Source of the DNA: an uncultured Armatimonadota bacterium
GTDB lineage: Bacteria > Armatimonadota > Fimbriimonadia > Fimbriimonadales > Fimbriimonadaceae
Reading direction: 5' to 3'
DNA: 64,000 nt
Assembly: GCA_903833215.1 (NCBI GenBank)
Contig: CAILEM010000010.1
Span: 1 to 64,000 of the forward strand
Each line of letters starts with the position of its first letter. Positions within the stretch are counted from its first letter, which is position 1. This document shows, in pieces, positions 14,076 through 22,835 of the stretch. The position numbers and the translations under genes were made by a program. The notes beneath the pieces are model-generated. The model was not told the origin of the DNA. It worked only from the letters and a program-made list of their open reading frames with translations, and ran no database searches.

Positions 14076-16745
14076 TCAGGCCCCCGGCACCTTCGCTTCA
14101 ACCACCAGCTTCAATCCATCCAAATACACTCCCGCCGGTGGAATCGTGATCTTCAGTCCATCGCCTACGGCCCGGTATCGACTGGTAGAAGCCGTCCGGA
14201 CAAACGATATCCCGATCCCGACCTTCTGAAACGCGAAATATCCGTCAAAGGCCGAAACCTGCGTTGCCAATATTTGGCCCTTTGCACCAACCAACTCAAG
14301 TGAAACACCGCCAATCGGTTCAGTGGCTCCGTCCTTCAATTCGAAAACGGTTCCCGTGACCTCACCCGTACATACGATAGGGAAGTCCAGCACCGGAACA
14401 TTTCCTGGACGAGGCGTGATCCGAACCCCGACCCGGGACGAAACCCAAAGGGGGTTGCTCAGCGTGGCCTCCGCCACCCGCAAGTCGACCGGTTTGTACG
14501 CAGGCAAGCTATCGATTAGCACAGTCCCGTCCTTAGCCGTGTGCCGCCCAATCGGAAGGTTGTTTGCAAACACCCCGACGTCTTCTAAAACCTCTTCCCC
14601 GGGGTCCAACTTTCCGCTGCCGTTTACATCACGAAATACCCGCACAAGCACGGCCCCCAATGTTGCTTGCGACGATGCGGTGTGCTTCCATTGGTTCGTC
14701 TGCGGATTCCGTACCGTCCCGAACGACAAACTCAGGCCTAGGACAATCCCATTCAGCTTAGAAACATCGACCGTATAGCCATAGGTGTAAGTCCCAAAAC
14801 TTCTCGCAAGCGACGCCGTGACTCCAAGGTTGCGATCCATCGGAGTCTCATACATGCCGTATGTCAGCACCCGCTGATTCGCATAGAACCTTCGAATCTG
14901 AAGACTGAGTTGGTTGATGCTGAGCGCATCGGTCCACGAGTAATGAATCGCACCCTGCAGTAACGGACCATCACCCCAGCGAGTCACGAGAACTTGTCCC
15001 TGCGTGCTGATCCCTTGTCCCGTTTGCTGGCGCCAGTCGAACCAATCGGTGATGCTATACCCATGGCTCTGAAAAGACATCCGGTCCCGGATTTCCCACC
15101 GCTCGATACCCCCTCGGGTTTTCTCATGAGCAAGGTACAAGTCGGTAGGTAACATGCCCGACCACCTGGGCATCGCGATATTGCCGATTTGAAGCCTGGT
15201 TTGTGACTTGATTGGGTCGAGGTTCTGGAGCAGTAACTCACTACGCAAATCCTGAACCCATAGCTGGTTAAGGGTCACGCTTGTTTCCTTCCAAAACCAC
15301 TGCACCCCCACTTCCTCCGCGGTCCCCGACTTTGGGTCAGAGGTCATCTCGGCATATCCGCGAACTCCAAGCGTAAAGGCTTGAAGACCCAACGAGCCGT
15401 AGGTATGGGGACCATCGGTAAGCGTCGTGGTTGCGAGTCCTACCGTCGTGGAAACATTGCCGGTCAAACCAAGATCAGTTCGGGCTGAGATCGGGCTCGC
15501 ACTTTCGAAACTCGGATCTACTACGACTCGATACCAATTCTCGCCAGGCGCAACAAGCTCATTCGCGATGTTCGAGGTTTTTGTCTCAACCCGCTGCTCA
15601 CCACCCGGACCATGAAACACAAGGCGATAGTAATTGACTCCAAACGCGAGCGGCACGTTCTTGAATGTGTATCTGCCGCTAGAGTTAGACATCTGATAGT
15701 CAACTAATGCAGTGCCAAGGAACAACTGAACATCCCACCCTGCGAGCAGAACCCCGGAAAAGGATGTGACATCAAACTGCGAAGAACGATCAATCGGATA
15801 GCTGCTAACAAGGAGTCCAGACTCAAGGTGGGTATCCCAAAGAAGCGGGAAGGCAGGGACGTAAAACTGTCCAACCGCGACCTCTCGGGCATGAAGACTG
15901 CCTAGCAGATGCCCATCAGGATCCGTTTGCCCAACCGACACCGATCCATTGGCAAGCGTCGAGCCAGAATCCAGTTGAAGGAATGCTGTCAGACCTTGGC
16001 GTTCCACATCAGCGGCGAGAAGTGCCGAATAATGTGCGTCCAAGCCCGTGCCTTTCGGTCCCAAACTCAATCCGAACGTCTGATCAAAGGAAGGTCCACC
16101 GAACATTTGATAGGGATTGGGCACCACCGGGAAGCCAGGGTCCCGGTAGGTAGAAAAGCCAGATGTCGCCAACTTTCCCTGCCTGTCGCGTTCCAGCCTC
16201 AGTTGTATCGGCAAAGGCTCCCCTGGCTGAACAGATATGTCCGACCCAAAGACGTCGACCTTGAGCCCAAGGTCGAACCATGTGCTCAAAATCTTGGCAT
16301 CGATGTAGATATCATTCCGATGCAACTCAATCCCGGCACTATCAAACGGGAGAGCGACACCGTTGAGGTTTGCGGTGTGTTTTGCAAGATCAAGTCGGAA
16401 CGGCCGATTCTTGATGCGTACAAATCCATCTGCAGTTCCGAGACCTACGTTGACATTAACCGACAACTCCAAGCAACGGCATATTTCACCAAGTGGCACC
16501 AAGACCCCACCTGGGTACTGATAGGCTTCGAGCCCAGGTGAGACCGATATTCCCGCCATGTGAACCGAGAGAAGAATCAGGCTGTCCTCTGGTCGTGAAA
16601 CGACACTAAGCCGATTCGTTTGCGGGGCGACAGATTTGGCAGGAACCTGAGTGAAACCGCTTGTGAAGAGAACACAGAGAACGGTGAGGAGACTTCGACT
16701 ACCGCGATGTCCGAGAAGTCGAACAGTTACTGCACGACTTCCCAT
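14076..16745 (-). CDS. Fimbrial outer-membrane usher-like protein
   Basis: This 889-aa protein is the likely outer-membrane pore and assembly platform for DUF4402-type fimbriae. It starts with a signal-like segment (LLTVLCVLFTSGFT), then an N-terminal periplasmic region (about 55-165). A long beta-rich stretch with many aromatic-ended strands follows (about 190-680), consistent with a barrel and plug, including GRYTFKNVPLAFGVNYYRLV. The C-terminal 200 residues contain two carboxypeptidase-regulatory/SdrD-B-like beta sandwiches (VRVFRDVNGSGKLDPGEEV; SAFDGYFAFQKVGIG). These tails are typical of ushers in alternative chaperone-usher loci. I chose ATG 16745 after an aggtg site. It is last in the operon, 34 nt after the chaperone, and followed by a terminator. 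Confidence 0.75.
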   Translation of the reverse strand: MGSRAVTVRLLGHRGSRSLLTVLCVLFTSGFTQVPAKSVAPQTNRLSVVSRPEDSLILLSVHMAGISVSPGLEAYQYPGGVLVPLGEICRCLELSVNVNVGLGTADGFVRIKNRPFRLDLAKHTANLNGVALPFDSAGIELHRNDIYIDAKILSTWFDLGLKVDVFGSDISVQPGEPLPIQLRLERDRQGKLATSGFSTYRDPGFPVVPNPYQMFGGPSFDQTFGLSLGPKGTGLDAHYSALLAADVERQGLTAFLQLDSGSTLANGSVSVGQTDPDGHLLGSLHAREVAVGQFYVPAFPLLWDTHLESGLLVSSYPIDRSSQFDVTSFSGVLLAGWDVQLFLGTALVDYQMSNSSGRYTFKNVPLAFGVNYYRLVFHGPGGEQRVETKTSNIANELVAPGENWYRVVVDPSFESASPISARTDLGLTGNVSTTVGLATTTLTDGPHTYGSLGLQAFTLGVRGYAEMTSDPKSGTAEEVGVQWFWKETSVTLNQLWVQDLRSELLLQNLDPIKSQTRLQIGNIAMPRWSGMLPTDLYLAHEKTRGGIERWEIRDRMSFQSHGYSITDWFDWRQQTGQGISTQGQVLVTRWGDGPLLQGAIHYSWTDALSINQLSLQIRRFYANQRVLTYGMYETPMDRNLGVTASLARSFGTYTYGYTVDVSKLNGIVLGLSLSFGTVRNPQTNQWKHTASSQATLGAVLVRVFRDVNGSGKLDPGEEVLEDVGVFANNLPIGRHTAKDGTVLIDSLPAYKPVDLRVAEATLSNPLWVSSRVGVRITPRPGNVPVLDFPIVCTGEVTGTVFELKDGATEPIGGVSLELVGAKGQILATQVSAFDGYFAFQKVGIGISFVRTASTSRYRAVGDGLKITIPPAGVYLDGLKLVVEAKVPGA

Positions 16746-16779
16746 AAGCACCTGCGTTCGTAGTGGACCGATCTAGCCT

Positions 16780-17679
16780 CTACGAAACATCCAGGGTGCC
16801 AATCGCGATCGGCTTGTTGCTTTCCGCTGCCGAGCGGATATACATGACCTTGATCGTCCCACCATGAAGATTCACACTTGTAGGAAGTGCAAGCCGAATT
16901 GAGAAATTCCGGTCCGTATTCGGTGAATACACCGCGACCCCACCGAGATTTCCGATTGGCGTCGAGACCATTCCGCTCTTGATGTACATGAGCTGAATTT
17001 CACCGTAAACCGAGGCATTACCCGTCCGCGTTAAGTGCCCGGTGACAACTTGCTCGCCAGAAACCGTTGTCGCAAGCTTCAAGTCCTTCATGCCAATCGC
17101 CGAACTCGTCTTGCCATGGCGCACGATGAGAGGAATGGAAACACCATAGATGGGTGCCAGTTGCATCGAAATGCCCGTCTCCCCCGAAGCCGTATTGACA
17201 ACGGTATCTGTGCCAACCGGCTCCGGTATCGCCCGGATGAGGATATGGGAGCGATACTCTCCTGCCTCAAGTTCAGCCGGCAGCCGAAGCTGGATGCGAA
17301 CGAGTTGAGATACGTTGGGTTCAAGAACAACCTGGTGAGGGCTGAACTGAACAAGCTCGTCCGCAAACCGCTCGCCAGGACCCGCTGTCTGGATCTCTTC
17401 TAGCTTGCCATCGTCGTTCATCCGTTGATGGATGAGTGAGATTCGATACGTCGCTCGTTTTGATCCTATGTTCAAAAGGTTAACGTCGATAGACCTCTTG
17501 GAGTCTTCGAGCATGACTCGAGTGGGGGCAATAAGGAGGTCGCCACTACCGACGCTCCGACCCTGAGTTGCGTGAGAGTTCGCCGACGCAATACAGGCGA
17601 GTGTCAAAAGTGTGAGCCTGAAGGGTCGGGCAGTGAAAGCTGAAAACGCATTGAGTGTCATAAGGAGAATTCCGAGCAT
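16780..17679 (-). CDS. Fimbrial periplasmic chaperone (PapD-like)
   Basis: This 299-aa exported protein has a long signal region (to about residue 40, ending SANSHATQG) and a PapD-like N-terminal Ig domain. It shows the LLIAPTRVMLEDSKRSIDVN strand and the chaperone hallmark FSPHQVVLEPNVSQLVRI, where fimbrial chaperones carry SP...PG..Q.VR. It should bind pilin subunits in the periplasm and deliver them to the usher encoded next. Length is somewhat longer than classical PapD. The start is uncertain between GTG 17682, ATG 17679 and ATG 17661. The position between pilin and usher genes supports the call. Confidence 0.8.
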   Translation of the reverse strand: MLGILLMTLNAFSAFTARPFRLTLLTLACIASANSHATQGRSVGSGDLLIAPTRVMLEDSKRSIDVNLLNIGSKRATYRISLIHQRMNDDGKLEEIQTAGPGERFADELVQFSPHQVVLEPNVSQLVRIQLRLPAELEAGEYRSHILIRAIPEPVGTDTVVNTASGETGISMQLAPIYGVSIPLIVRHGKTSSAIGMKDLKLATTVSGEQVVTGHLTRTGNASVYGEIQLMYIKSGMVSTPIGNLGGVAVYSPNTDRNFSIRLALPTSVNLHGGTIKVMYIRSAAESNKPIAIGTLDVS

Positions 17680-17752
17680 CACCCCATTTGGGGTCGACGC
17701 AAATATGTCGATATCAAGTTCGAAACCAGGGTTGTTGGTGCACTATCTCGAA

Positions 17753-18277
17753 CTACTGATAGTTGACCGTGACTGTAAATGTTCCGGTGTAAGCCCCTGG
17801 AACTTGGTTGCCACTAATTTGCAGCGTGGCACCGACTGTAATAACCGAAGTTCCACCCGCCGAAAGTGTTCCTGTCGCTGTCGGATTCGTAGTGAACTGG
17901 TTCACCACCATTGTCGAGCCGGTTGGCCCCGCAATGCTAATCGTTGTCGGCAGCGAGATCGTGTACACATAGTTAGCACCACCGGTCACTGTGAAGCTCG
18001 CCGCACCCACCGGGTTAGCCGATAGAGTCAGGGGGATAGGGCCAGCCGAAGTTCTCGTGCCTGAAGTTGAGACTACGACGTTTCCGCCAATCCCCGAAAC
18101 GAACATCCCAAACTGTAAGTCAGTAACTTTGACAATCGTCAAGGCCGATGCAATACCCGCCGTAGCATTAGCCGTTGCCGTTGACTGTCCAAGGGCGCTT
18201 TGTGCTCCAACTGTCATCAGGGCACCTGCCATGAGAACTGGAATCCACTTTTTCAGTGCAAATCTGCAATTTTTCAT
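17753..18277 (-). CDS. DUF4402 pilin-like protein 1
   Basis: The 174-aa protein has a signal peptide (KKWIPVLMAGALMTVGAQSA, cleavage after LGQ) followed by a DUF4402 domain. It begins with the conserved ATANATAGIASALTIVK...LQFG, with GTRTSAGPIPL and GAASFTVTG in the middle and ends GAYTGTFTVTVNYQ. DUF4402 proteins are thought to be structural fimbrial subunits. The alternating hydrophobic C-terminal strand is as expected for donor-strand assembly. It lies 74 bp upstream of the chaperone gene in the same direction, so it is probably the major subunit of this operon. Confidence 0.88.
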   Translation of the reverse strand: MKNCRFALKKWIPVLMAGALMTVGAQSALGQSTATANATAGIASALTIVKVTDLQFGMFVSGIGGNVVVSTSGTRTSAGPIPLTLSANPVGAASFTVTGGANYVYTISLPTTISIAGPTGSTMVVNQFTTNPTATGTLSAGGTSVITVGATLQISGNQVPGAYTGTFTVTVNYQ

Positions 18278-18439
18278 TTAACCGCTCCACGAAGCAGTGG
18301 TGAAGACTGCAAAACCCCACACAGGTTCCACTTGGGAACAAAACGAGTAGCCACCGCTAACACCGTCGGCCAATTCAGCGCCAGCGCAGCACAAGTTAAA
18401 TAGAACCCGAAAGACTCCAAACTCTCGAATCCACAGCAG

Positions 18440-18547
18440 CAGAACGGCACTGATTCCCTCCACCGCGTCCGAGCGGTCGGAGGGTGGTGAGGGGGAAATC
18501 CGGCCAGTCCAAATTGCGTCGAGACGAAGTCGAGACTCCTAACACCC
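18440..18547. repeat. Dispersed intergenic repeat, family A, copy A3
   Basis: The core ccctccaccgcgtccgagcg at 18459, the GGAGGGTGG arm, GGGGGAAATCCGG and GTCGAGACGAAGTCGAGAC occur in the same order as at 3070-3200. It lies between two DUF4402 genes and is the best-preserved uninterrupted copy, useful as the reference for the IS-split copy. Confidence 0.82.
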
Positions 18548-18558
18548 TAATGCCAGAA

Positions 18559-19080
18559 TTATTCGTAATGTACGGTAACCGAAAACGTTCCGTAATACGC
18601 CCCCGGCGTTTGGTTACCACCCACGGTAAGCGTCGCACCCACGCTGATCGTTCCTGAACCCTTTGAAGGTATGGTTCCGTGACCCGAAGGGCTGCTAACG
18701 AACTTGGTGAGCGTCATCTTCGACCCACTCGGGCCATTGAGGGTAACGGAACTCGGAAGCATAATCGTGAAATCGAAGTGGGACGAGCCGTCAACAGTGA
18801 AAGTTGCCGCCCCGACAGGGCTGTTCGCACTGGAGATTAAGATTGGGCCGCTCGCCGTGCGGGATCCTGTAGGATCGATCGTGATCGTTCCCGGCGTACC
18901 CGAAACAAACGTTCCAAATTGAAGATCGGCAATCTTACAGAGCTTAATCGCCGGCATCACCGAAGCCGTAATATCCGCCATCGTGCTCGTTTGACCGTAG
19001 GATGTCCGAACGCCTACTGCAATGAATCCGACGAACAGAATCCATTTTTTCGAGCGCAAACATGCAAACCTCTGTGCCAC
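18559..19080 (-). CDS. DUF4402 pilin-like protein 2
   Basis: This 173-aa protein is a paralogue of the neighbouring DUF4402 protein. It shares signal peptide type (KKWILFVGFIAVGVRTS), LQFGTFVSG, DPTGSRTASGPI, GAATFTVDG, and the ending GAYYGTFSVTVHYE. The two differ across most of the domain, so the duplication is old. It may be a minor or tip subunit. The start could be GTG 19080 or, judged by an agagg site, TTG 19059. It is separated from the first copy by a family A repeat of about 280 bp, so it may have its own promoter. Confidence 0.85.
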   Translation of the reverse strand: MAQRFACLRSKKWILFVGFIAVGVRTSYGQTSTMADITASVMPAIKLCKIADLQFGTFVSGTPGTITIDPTGSRTASGPILISSANSPVGAATFTVDGSSHFDFTIMLPSSVTLNGPSGSKMTLTKFVSSPSGHGTIPSKGSGTISVGATLTVGGNQTPGAYYGTFSVTVHYE

Positions 19081-19144: not shown

Positions 19145-19894
19145 TTAAGCCTGAGGCGCCGTTACAACGCCGCCCGTCCGAAGATACTCGGCGAAATACT
19201 CCGGCAAACCCGCTGTAACTAGTCGTTGACAAGCGCTCTCAACGTCGTACTCGACCCGAATCTGTTCCGAACTCACTGCTCCACCTTCGATAGTCAACGA
19301 ACAATAGCCAGCCCGAACATCTCCATCCTTCGGACGGCCAACGCTGCCTGTATTCACGAAGTGAACTCCATTCACCATCCGATGGAATGGCACGTGGGTA
19401 TGCCCAAAAACAATCACTTCGGCACCGGCATCCGCTACACCATCAGCCGTGAACTGCTTCAGATAACCATCAGAGCGGTTCTCAAAAAGGTACTCCGTCG
19501 TATCTCGCGGTGATCCGTGGCACAGCAAAACACGAAGCCCATCAACCTGGCACCGAATCTCGCGGGGCAACTCTCGCAACCAGGCTTTATTGGGCTCCGA
19601 CGTATGCTCCCGGGTCCAGAAGAATGAGACGTTCGACATTTCGATATCGAACGGCTTGATGTAATGACAGCCACAGCTCTCCCGTTCAAACCCAACGCCC
19701 TCATCGTAATTGCCAAGCACAGTTGGGCAGCCCATCGCCACCACAACTTCTTGAACCTCGTTCGGTTCGCTGGCATAGCCGCCAAGGTCGCCAAGGCAAT
19801 AGACCAGGTCATAGTTACCGGCCGCAATGTGATCCCTCACCGCGAGCATCGCGGGCAAGTTGGCGTGAACGTCGGAGAAGATAGCGATTTTCAT
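19145..19894 (-). CDS. Calcineurin-like metallophosphoesterase (YfcE/DUF2436-type fold)
   Basis: The 249-aa protein has all motifs of a bimetal phosphoesterase: SDVHAN (Asp8, His10), CLGDLGGYA, LGNYDEG in place of the usual GNHD, CHGSP and VFGHTHVPF. It is cytoplasmic, with no signal peptide. The class hydrolyses phosphodiesters or phosphomonoesters; the substrate here is unknown. It starts only 6 nt after the arsA stop codon, so it is very likely the last gene of the ars transcript. A metallophosphoesterase is not a standard ars gene, which makes its context more informative than its fold. Confidence 0.88.
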   Translation of the reverse strand: MKIAIFSDVHANLPAMLAVRDHIAAGNYDLVYCLGDLGGYASEPNEVQEVVVAMGCPTVLGNYDEGVGFERESCGCHYIKPFDIEMSNVSFFWTREHTSEPNKAWLRELPREIRCQVDGLRVLLCHGSPRDTTEYLFENRSDGYLKQFTADGVADAGAEVIVFGHTHVPFHRMVNGVHFVNTGSVGRPKDGDVRAGYCSLTIEGGAVSSEQIRVEYDVESACQRLVTAGLPEYFAEYLRTGGVVTAPQA

Positions 19895-19900
19895 AGAGGT

Positions 19901-21631
19901 CTACTCGCAGGGTTGAGATCGATGCACCTTAGGGGTCCAAGCCATCCCCACAAGTCGATTCGAGAGCCTAGCCGCTTCCGCGAATGGCCCGGATTCCTGG
20001 TTGGCTTTGGCACGGAGCAAGGGATCCGTAGGTCCCGCCAAAGAGAGTGACTGGTTCACAATCCAGCCAAACGGCTCGATTCCAGCTCGGCGCAAATCGT
20101 CCTGCAACCGCTCCGCCTCATGAACCGGCGTGGGTTGGGGAAGGGTGACAATAACGATTTTCGTTTGAACCGGGTCCCGAAGCGTTGGAAGGAGTTGACG
20201 AACCGATTCCGGCATTTCCGAGGTGGTTCGTAGAACCTCCCTGTGATAAGCCTCCGCCGAATCGAGCAGTAAGAGACTGTGTCCAGTCGGGGCAGTATCC
20301 ACAACCACAAACCGTTGCTTGCCCTCAAAGACTGCTTCCGCAAACGCGCGAAACACAGCAATCTCCTCGGTACAAGGCGACCGCAAGTCCTCAACCAGCA
20401 ACGCAAGCCCCTCTTCATCCATTTCAGGTCGGGCTGCTTCGATAATATTCTCTGAGTACTTCTTGATTTCAGTTCCCGGGTCAATCGATCGGACGGTTAC
20501 GTTCGAAGGGAACTGAGATTTCCAGTCGTCAAGATTTCCCGCCGGGTCAGTGGTGGTTAGCAGAACTGGGAAATTGCGTCGTCCGAGTTCGAGAGCAATC
20601 TCGACCGCGATGGTGGTTTTTCCGACCCCACCTTTGCCCATCGTCATGATCACGCCGCTGCCCGACTGAGAGATTTCGTCGACAAACGTGCCGAAATCCA
20701 GCCCATGAGGAACTTCGATCAGATGATCGCCATCGCCAACCGTCGCTTGCATCGGCAAGACAAGGGCCTCAAGCGCCTGACGACCAACAATGTTGAACCC
20801 CATCATCGGTACTTGCGAAAGGGGTAGAAGCTTCAGGCCATCAGGCATGCTAGCCAACCCATTCCGACAACCTTCGGCAAAAGCCATCGCTACCGGGTCC
20901 TGCGTATCGGTCGCGACAAATACACCATTCACGACCAAGCGTAAGTTCCGGATTCCCAGTTCCGCCAACTCATTCTGCGTCCGGGCCGCCTCATTCAAGC
21001 TTGAGCTTTCGGGCCTTGCGACCAGAACAATGGTGGTTTGTCCAGGGTCCCCCAGACGCTCCAACGCGCTCTTGTACTTTTCGCGCTGATCTTGGAGTCC
21101 GGCAAGGGGGCCGAGGCAGCTCGTCTCCGATGTCGTCGTGTTCAGATATCCGTTCCAGGCACTTGGCAGAGAAAGTAGCCGCAGTGTGTGACCGGTTGGA
21201 GCGGTATCAAAAATCACCCTGTCAAACTTCTCAACAGTTGCTGGATCGGTAATGAGCCTCACGAACTCATCGAAAGAAGCGATCTCAGTGGTGCAAGCCC
21301 CTGAAAACTGCTCTTCCATGTTTCGAAGGACAGCTTCGGGGAGCACGCCACGGTACGGACCCACGATCTTCTCTCGATACGCTTGAGCCGCCGCTTCAGG
21401 GTCGAGATTGACTCCAAACAGCCCAGGAATACCGGATATCGGAGTTGGCTCCATGCCAAGTTTGGTCTCAAAGACCTCATCCAGATTCGAAGCTGGATCG
21501 GTGCTAATGATGATTGTCCGCAGTCCGAGCTCTGCAAATTGCAGTGCCGTTGCCGCCGAAAGGGAGGTCTTTCCGACCCCACCTTTTCCGGTGAAGAAAG
21601 CGAACCTTGTCTCCAGGTTGTCAATCCACAT
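19901..21631 (-). CDS. arsA: Arsenite/antimonite-stimulated ATPase ArsA
   Basis: This 576-aa protein is a full double-domain ArsA. Each half has a deviant Walker A motif (GKGGVGKTS near residue 14, GKGGVGKTT near 330) and the signal-transduction motif DTAPTGH. The three arsenite-binding cysteines known from plasmid R773 ArsA appear to be conserved: FSGACTTEIASF, ETSCLGPLAG and RSPCTEEIAVF. ArsA normally binds the ArsB membrane pump and powers As(III)/Sb(III) export. Its ATG (21631) overlaps the end of arsD by 11 nt; a GTG at 21649 is an alternative. No arsB or acr3 lies in this window. Confidence 0.95.
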   Translation of the reverse strand: MWIDNLETRFAFFTGKGGVGKTSLSAATALQFAELGLRTIIISTDPASNLDEVFETKLGMEPTPISGIPGLFGVNLDPEAAAQAYREKIVGPYRGVLPEAVLRNMEEQFSGACTTEIASFDEFVRLITDPATVEKFDRVIFDTAPTGHTLRLLSLPSAWNGYLNTTTSETSCLGPLAGLQDQREKYKSALERLGDPGQTTIVLVARPESSSLNEAARTQNELAELGIRNLRLVVNGVFVATDTQDPVAMAFAEGCRNGLASMPDGLKLLPLSQVPMMGFNIVGRQALEALVLPMQATVGDGDHLIEVPHGLDFGTFVDEISQSGSGVIMTMGKGGVGKTTIAVEIALELGRRNFPVLLTTTDPAGNLDDWKSQFPSNVTVRSIDPGTEIKKYSENIIEAARPEMDEEGLALLVEDLRSPCTEEIAVFRAFAEAVFEGKQRFVVVDTAPTGHSLLLLDSAEAYHREVLRTTSEMPESVRQLLPTLRDPVQTKIVIVTLPQPTPVHEAERLQDDLRRAGIEPFGWIVNQSLSLAGPTDPLLRAKANQESGPFAEAARLSNRLVGMAWTPKVHRSQPCE

Positions 21632-22001
21632 CGGAGCAGCACCCGTCACTCGGCAGCACGTTCAGCTGCTTACGTGGCTTTTCTTCGAGTGCGGCCGCAT
21701 CGAGTCCGAACCAACTTGCCATCTCGGCACGCGAGGGATAGCAGCCTTTCGCTCGTACGCTGTTGTTCACGATAAATAGCGGAAGGTTCTCAGCCCGAGG
21801 TCCCATTGCTGCCATCACCATCGGTGACCGCGTAAACGCCTGCGGTTGACGGCCCAAATTGAACCTCTCGACCGTGATCCCCTGGCCCTTTAGAAAGCTA
21901 ATATCCGATGCCAGCCGCAACAACTTTGGGTCCACACTCGGGCCGCACACTCCCGTAGAACAGCACATCGCAGGGTCATAAACGTATAACGTCGCACTCA
22001 T
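21621..22001 (-). CDS. arsD: Arsenic metallochaperone ArsD
   Basis: The 126-aa protein matches ArsD, which passes As(III) to ArsA. The functional cysteines of E. coli ArsD (Cys12, Cys13, Cys18) align with Cys13, Cys14 and Cys19 in AMCCSTGVCGPS. The thioredoxin-like fold motif with LPLFIVNN follows, and a C-terminal GCCSDVD adds a vicinal cysteine pair as in several ArsD proteins. The ATG overlaps the arsR stop codon (TAATG), and its 3' end overlaps arsA, so the three genes form one coupled unit. Confidence 0.95.
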   Translation of the reverse strand: MSATLYVYDPAMCCSTGVCGPSVDPKLLRLASDISFLKGQGITVERFNLGRQPQAFTRSPMVMAAMGPRAENLPLFIVNNSVRAKGCYPSRAEMASWFGLDAAALEEKPRKQLNVLPSDGCCSDVD

Positions 22002-22348
22002 TAGCAGCACTCCTCAGAAATCTTGGAATCGTGGTTAAGGTAGTCGGCAAGACGAGCCAGGGCAACTCGATTCACTCCGCAAATCATGTACTTGCCTCGC
22101 CGTTCGACGTGAATAAGACCTGCATCACGTAGCTCGTTGATATGGAACGAGATCGTGGAGTTGATCTTGTCCTTGCCTGTGATATGGCAGCAAACTTCAC
22201 CGACGGAAGGTCCATCGATCAGGTGAACGTCCCCCTCCTCACCGACCGCAACCGGACTACACCGGTCTCGCAAAAAGTCGAGTATTTGCACCCGAGTCTT
22301 ATCTCCAAGCGCCTTGAACATCAACGCCAGATCGGCAGAGGAATCCAT
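22001..22348 (-). CDS. arsR: ArsR/SmtB-family repressor
   Basis: The 115-aa winged-helix protein has the family N-terminus (ALMFKALGDKTRVQILDFL), a recognition helix region around STISFHINELRDAGLI and a wing at VERRGKYMICGV. Cysteines that may bind As(III) are the pair in VGEVCCHI at the start of the recognition helix region and the C-terminal EECC. It should repress the operon until As(III) or Sb(III) binds. It is the first gene of arsR-arsD-arsA-metallophosphoesterase, with inverted repeats directly upstream. Confidence 0.93.
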   Translation of the reverse strand: MDSSADLALMFKALGDKTRVQILDFLRDRCSPVAVGEEGDVHLIDGPSVGEVCCHITGKDKINSTISFHINELRDAGLIHVERRGKYMICGVNRVALARLADYLNHDSKISEECC

Positions 22349-22390
22349 ATGACGAAGGATACCGTAATCATTTCGTCATTCTTAGGAATG
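22349..22390 (-). promoter_or_regulatory. Candidate ArsR operator
   Basis: Two inverted repeats lie directly upstream of the arsR ATG: ATGACGAA (22349-22356) with TTCGTCAT (22372-22379), and CATTC-TTAG-GAATG (22377-22390). Either could be the ArsR binding site. The first overlaps where ribosomes would bind. Confidence 0.5.
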
Positions 22391-22835
22391 TTGGACTGAA
22401 TCGCGTTAAGGATCTATGAAAGTTCAAACAACCTCTACCACCGCTCGTCTCTGCCGCGACCCCTAACACTCCTACCACCCCCGTGGTCGACGGTGATCGT
22501 ACCGGCACAAGGACCTTGGAGATGTAACCCAACTCACACTCTTTCACCTTAAATTGCCTGATCAAACAACAAATTGGGATCACGCCATTGATGTCCTGAT
22601 ACAAACCCTGGCGGCTAATCCTGCGTCTGAAAGAATCGCCCTGGGACTAAATACTTTATGGACTCAAGCGTGGCCTTGAGTAATGAGCATGATGACTCAT
22701 TGTATTGAAAGTACCTGTAAGTACTAAGACTCATTACTGGGAACAAGGGCGACGGTTCTACCTACACCTATCCGATGATGCGAGATGTCAGTTGCGTTTC
22801 CACTCCGTTGTAACGGGGTGGCAGGAGAGTCGCCA
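22391..22835. other. Divergent intergenic region with a family B repeat and small hairpins
   Basis: A family B repeat variant (core GTGGTCGACGGTGATCGTAC at 22483) sits at about 22445-22515. Further on, GAGTAATGAG (about 22677) and its complement CTCATTAC (about 22730) recur, with CTCATT also at 22695. A hairpin CCACTCCGTT-GT-AACGGGGTGG spans 22800-22821, directly before the ribosome-binding site of the lipoprotein gene, and could influence its translation. I compared this leader with riboswitch classes I know and found no match. Confidence 0.45.

Follow-up and report, generated by a model that had tools for sequence, protein, structure and literature searches.

A probable Car1-type arsenate reductase in a proposed split ars regulon of an uncultured member of the Armatimonadota

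Introduction

What does an arsR-arsD-arsA operon do when its last gene encodes a metallophosphoesterase (MPE) and neither a pump gene nor a familiar reductase gene accompanies it? This question is raised by a four-gene locus of an uncultured member of the Armatimonadota, found in a stretch of 64,000 nucleotides (hereafter the window). The original prediction saw no pump or reductase here, and proposed that ArsA serves a distant pump, or that ArsA and ArsD drive some other process involving the phosphoesterase, which might, for example, hydrolyse an organo-phosphate or a nucleotide signal. We consider it highly likely that the locus belongs to an ars regulon split over three places in the genome, with a Car1-type reductase, an ArsD-ArsA pair energising a distant Acr3, and common ArsR control. 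The operon would thus be part of a complete, split detoxification pathway, and nothing new, because its phosphoesterase is most likely the reductase and the pump is encoded elsewhere.

The operon and its genes

The features of the locus, all within the window, are the following.

22368..22394, no strand assigned: predicted ArsR operator, a partial palindrome 5' of arsR (27-nt matrix, 18.0 bits)
22001..22348, minus strand: arsR, encoding a 115-aa repressor of the ArsR/SmtB family, at the head of the operon (family models)
21621..22001, minus strand: arsD, arsenite metallochaperone (NF033727; Cys13, Cys14, Cys19)
19901..21631, minus strand: arsA, arsenical pump-driving ATPase, 576 aa from ATG (TIGR04291; Cys113/172/420)
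19145..19894, minus strand: car1-type gene, calcineurin-like metallophosphoesterase and predicted arsenate reductase, 249 aa (CGC motif and metal ligands, ars context, AlphaFold2)
19667..19675, minus strand: codons of Cys74-Gly75-Cys76 in the car1-type gene (translation)

The predicted gene order and coupling proved exact, by coordinates and by family models: arsR and arsD are coupled by TAATG (arsD ATG at 22001), arsD and arsA overlap by 11 nt (arsD end at 21621, arsA ATG at 21631), and 6 nt separate arsA (stop at 19901-19903) from the phosphoesterase gene (ATG at 19894). The arsenite-binding cysteines are indeed intact, as Cys113/172/420 in ArsA and as the N-terminal CC...C motif (Cys13/14/19) in ArsD, and ArsA also has two P-loops (GKGGVGKT in each) and two DTAPTGH motifs. 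In the family-model search, ArsA scored 727 bits with TIGR04291 (equivalog cut-off, 650) and ArsD 105.8 bits with NF033727 (cut-off, 90), while the phosphoesterase matched PF12850 (94 bits), PF00149 and TIGR00040/YfcE. ArsR carries Cys53/Cys54, Cys90 and the C-terminal Cys114/115. By tblastn, Acr3, ArsC, ArsM, MIP, ArsP, ArsH and ArsN2 found no match within the 64-kb window, in agreement with the earlier statement that it holds no pump, arsC or arsM; the operon thus departs from the classical arsRDABC arrangement in having no pump gene of its own. A scan of promoter and terminator consensus sequences gave no signal beyond chance level.

Directly 3' of the ars operon, on the same strand and after a gap of 64 nt, lies another gene group (14076-19080, minus strand). 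It encodes two pilin-like DUF4402 proteins, a protein resembling a chaperone, and a large outer-membrane protein that is usher-like but has no Usher Pfam match. This group is possibly a divergent chaperone-usher pilus.

The phosphoesterase and its cysteine motif

According to the 2025 account given in PMC12124457, which cites Shen et al. (2024, doi 10.1111/mmi.15289), Car1 of Rufibacter tibetensis is a metallophosphoesterase-type As(V) reductase in which Cys74 and Cys76 are essential. The window protein carries Cys-Gly-Cys (CGC) at exactly residues 74-76, as does a homologue from Rufibacter latericius (L205; about 44% identity to the window protein), and the comparison with Car1 rests on this homologue and on residue numbering, not on the R. 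tibetensis sequence. All ligands of the binuclear metal site (D8, H10, D36, N62, H126, H165 and H167) are kept in the window protein and, like CGC, are invariant in 65 aligned relatives. In line with this, the sequence very probably encodes a Car1-type arsenate reductase.

The AlphaFold2 model of the protein (mean pLDDT 96.2) found metallophosphoesterases as its top Foldseek matches (TM about 0.75-0.80), and the Ap4A hydrolase SapH is among the solved folds closest to it. Because of this last match, we keep as a rival, although a quite unlikely one, the reading that the protein is an ordinary phosphodiesterase or phosphatase (YfcE- or Ap4A-hydrolase-like) cleaving an arsenic-stress nucleotide alarmone or an organo-phosphate. 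The wholly conserved hydrolase fold and metal ligands would suit such an enzyme, and Car1 itself reportedly has limited phosphatase activity. Against it stands the distribution of the motif: CGC is invariant in its clade and does not occur in the examined non-ars homologues, of which two, from cyanobacteria, have the variant CDC. In a quick ML tree, the window protein fell inside a clade of 10 Armatimonadota CGC proteins (SH-aLRT 100), and the CGC label required 3 changes, versus 13.2 with shuffled labels. Homologues outside the CGC clade and devoid of CxC occupy settings unrelated to ars, with few exceptions (L093, L248 and tandem second copies).

A long-branched MPE pair from cyanobacterial plasmids (L095 and L250) has CDC replacing CGC. 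Its neighbours are folE, hemB, hisI and thrS paralogues and genes for GTP-binding proteins; such surroundings resemble a metal-starvation cluster and not an ars locus.

Genomic context and exchange with arsC

Our survey of the genus, family and order covered 61 genomes. Close orthologues (73-79% identity) were found in seven other genomes, together with one decayed remnant (G016); six of the seven accompany ars genes and the seventh (G025) adjoins an aquaporin gene and arsR. The four-gene order, which was looked for across the lineage, recurs identically in G020 (arsR-arsD-arsA-MPE). Other arrangements are arsR-arsM-arsR-MPE-aquaporin in three genomes of the same genus (G004, G007, G019), arsR-acr3-MPE in G005, and an MPE gene facing arsA on convergent strands in G017. 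The phosphoesterase gene is an ars gene.

The remnant in G016 (L082:4650-5100, same genus) is frameshifted and its N-terminal half, with CGC, is gone; this genome is also without arsC.

Beyond the order, plasmid relatives with 36-45% identity stand in operons annotated as ars in Rubrobacter, Hymenobacter, Adhaeribacter, Pedobacter, Flammeovirga and Paraclostridium. Public genomes were then scanned genome-wide with patterns from which CGC was absent; as no more than the query's 80 best matches were retained, the sample is skewed to close relatives. CGC was present in 80/80 of these best loci (L215 was counted since its sequence reads CGC despite ambiguous bases breaking the pattern); a neighbouring ars-type or aquaporin gene was seen in 67 of the 80, and a core ars gene in 59. 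Of the other 13, which show no ars neighbour, at least four lie in pst/phoU operons. Metallophosphoesterases without the cysteines also occur in ars operons, as in Flammeovirga (L093, beside arsA), Pedobacter (second copy, L092) and Deinococcus (L248). Ars context alone is therefore no proof of reductase activity, and these copies lend some weight to the ordinary-hydrolase reading.

Two further groups were observed in these loci. In four Chloroflexota MAGs (L167, L168, L172, L177), CGC Car1-like proteins are encoded in or beside pst/phoU phosphate-transport operons, where they may reduce arsenate at its entry route or may keep an ancestral phosphate-related role. CxC-less MPEs were seen in ars operons at L092:5775-6509, L196, L208, L217, L218, L220, L226 and L240, and in many Bacteroidota, for example Pedobacter and Dyadobacter, the CxC-less protein is a mrme2-like tandem second copy directly after the CGC copy.

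Within the genus, the arrangement arsM-arsC-aquaporin (G001, G015, G018) is matched by arsM-arsR-car1-aquaporin (G004, G007, G019), so that the phosphoesterase gene takes the operon slot of arsC. It also nearly excludes arsC: five of the six car1 genomes have no arsC, and 12 of the 14 genomes without an intact car1 have one (Fisher p=0.007, each species counted as independent and shared ancestry uncorrected for). Both facts, together with the close functional precedent of Car1 as related in PMC12124457, argue against an ordinary hydrolase. Regarding classical reductases, PF03960 ArsC had no match in the 61 genomes, the window genome included. The arsC-type proteins of the surveyed genomes were found via PF01451 and show the motifs CVHN.GRS and CGVD..CP; the sole PF01451 match in the window genome has CLGNICRS, is LMW-PTP-like and is devoid of the ArsC cysteines.

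A distant pump and a predicted shared operator

A search for arsB and acr3 elsewhere in the window genome found acr3 on another contig (C12:17682-18668, 448 bits) and no match to ArsB. A third locus, on contig C77, is an arsR-arsM-aquaporin (MIP) operon. The claim that pump and reductase are lacking thus fails at genome scale, and is most likely wrong for the operon too, because the phosphoesterase very probably fills the reductase role.

The three loci appear to share an operator. Nine arsR promoters, all from other species, were aligned by hand into a 27-nt matrix, with which 191,848 positions of the window genome were scored. The top three matches were the arsR promoter on C77 (30.2 bits), the stretch preceding acr3 (29.4 bits) and the arsR promoter of the window (18.0 bits), the last being the weakest of the three. 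Over all 6.2 Mb, the core pattern had an exact match only before acr3 and two mismatches at C77, with background elsewhere. Since this predicted operator stands before acr3, the gene has probably left the operon yet stayed in the regulon. A pump gene inside the operon in relatives, which the original prediction had counted against its own reading, is found in part: a related Armatimonadota MAG (L163) has arsR-arsD-arsA-acr3-car1 in one run, and arsD-arsA-acr3 form one operon in G012.

These data bear on a second rival, in which ArsD and ArsA no longer serve arsenic efflux and instead drive another process, the distant Acr3 working alone. Acr3 permeases can indeed function without ArsA, the window operon has no pump gene, and four relatives (G004, G020, G022, G031) have arsA and no acr3 or arsB match. 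We nevertheless judge this reading very improbable: none of the metalloid cysteines is missing, the two nucleotide sites are intact, ArsA exceeds the equivalog cut-off, relatives (G012, L163) keep arsD, arsA and acr3 in one operon, and acr3 carries the same predicted operator. The idea of a distant pump served by ArsA is thereby strengthened, acr3 lying behind the lineage's predicted ArsR operator. By contrast, the notion of another process, powered by ArsA-ArsD, in which an organo-phosphate or a nucleotide signal is hydrolysed finds no support, given a phosphoesterase that has the Car1-type Cys74-Gly-Cys76, occupies the slot of arsC and occurs in ars loci across many phyla.

Three further candidates were rejected: an overlooked ArsB pump (the ArsB search of the window genome found none), a housekeeping ArsC elsewhere as the reductase (no PF03960 match, the lone PF01451 match being a plain LMW-PTP), and the phosphoesterase as an incidental neighbour (every complete close orthologue, at 73-79% identity, adjoins ars genes or an ars-linked aquaporin).

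Two observations concern arsM in other loci. In G017, of the same genus, a single 412-aa frame (L042:5742-6980) fuses ArsM (residues 8-297) to ArsD (301-395), with arsA directly after it; both halves exceed the NCBIfam cut-offs, and a literature search found no description of an ArsM-ArsD fusion. On a Paraclostridium bifermentans plasmid, codon 196 of an annotated arsM (L094:5776-6534) is an in-frame TGA, where other ArsM have the conserved cysteine of YVGC-VAGA. Because this TGA replaces a conserved cysteine codon, the ArsM in question is probably a selenoprotein.

Proposed mechanism and wider meaning

From a mechanistic point of view, the preferred reading assigns to the operon one half of a complete system for arsenic detoxification, namely arsenate reduction and arsenite delivery; we infer the reaction steps from the precedent of Car1 and from what is generally known of Ars proteins. 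As(V) would enter the cell, probably via phosphate uptake, and be bound at the calcineurin-like metal site of the Car1-type protein. Cys74 would attack the arsenate and Cys76 resolve the intermediate, releasing As(III), and the resulting Cys74-Cys76 disulfide would be re-reduced by thioredoxin. ArsD would take As(III) and pass it to ArsA, which would energise the Acr3 permease encoded on C12. The C77 operon may offer a second route, through As(III) methylation and exit by the channel. ArsR-type repressors are expected to bind the common operator before all three loci, allowing joint induction.

On a wider scale, there is perhaps an even chance that Car1-type reductases form a large class of arsenate reductases, present in a dozen or so phyla and usually annotated as metallophosphoesterase or YfcE, which replace arsC gene for gene, with a pst/phoU branch that may detoxify entering arsenate and derived cysteine-less copies serving a further ars step. 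For the locus studied here, the annotation of a gene as a phosphoesterase would be corrected and an apparently incomplete ars operon made complete. The exchange of the arsC slot and the near mutual exclusion offer independent comparative evidence for Car1-like arsenate reductases outside Bacteroidota. Finally, the probable loss of a pump gene from the operon, with its operator apparently kept, calls for caution in judging resistance systems by one locus.

Comparison with known systems

Car1 of R. tibetensis, as far as the cited account describes it, resembles the window protein in its calcineurin-like fold, binuclear metal ligands, Cys74/Cys76 and location in an ars operon. The window gene differs in being the last of an arsRDA operon of the Armatimonadota with no acr3 alongside, and its activity is predicted from sequence. 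In Paraclostridium, an ars-operon metallophosphoesterase about 40% identical to Car1 shares Cys74 and Cys76; its operon comprises orf1 (the metallophosphoesterase), arsM, arsP, arsD and arsA, in a strain that reduces and methylates As(V) (PMC12124457). Here too a Car1-like gene, arsD and arsA share one ars cluster, but the gene order is different and a permease is present in the cluster. The homologue on the P. bifermentans plasmid (L094) and the window protein share 36% identity.

In Mucilaginibacter gossypii P3, the metallophosphoesterases mrme1 and mrme2 belong to ars operons and were described as uncharacterised (PMC10652896). As in the window, metallophosphoesterase genes are fixed members of ars operons; those of M. 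gossypii adjoin acr3 and, unlike the window gene, form a tandem pair, of which the second copy, by analogy with the Pedobacter and Dyadobacter loci, is probably without CGC. With arsRDABC of plasmid R773, the window operon shares ArsR, ArsD and ArsA with conserved cysteines, whereas the window genome has no arsB, encodes an Acr3 pump elsewhere and relies on a predicted reductase of the Car1 family rather than the ArsC family. Sinorhizobium meliloti has the order arsR-aqpS-arsC-arsH. Its reductase gene beside an aquaporin exit channel recalls the car1-aquaporin pairs of the genus studied here; the reductase family is different, and in the window genome the aquaporin gene sits with arsM on another contig.
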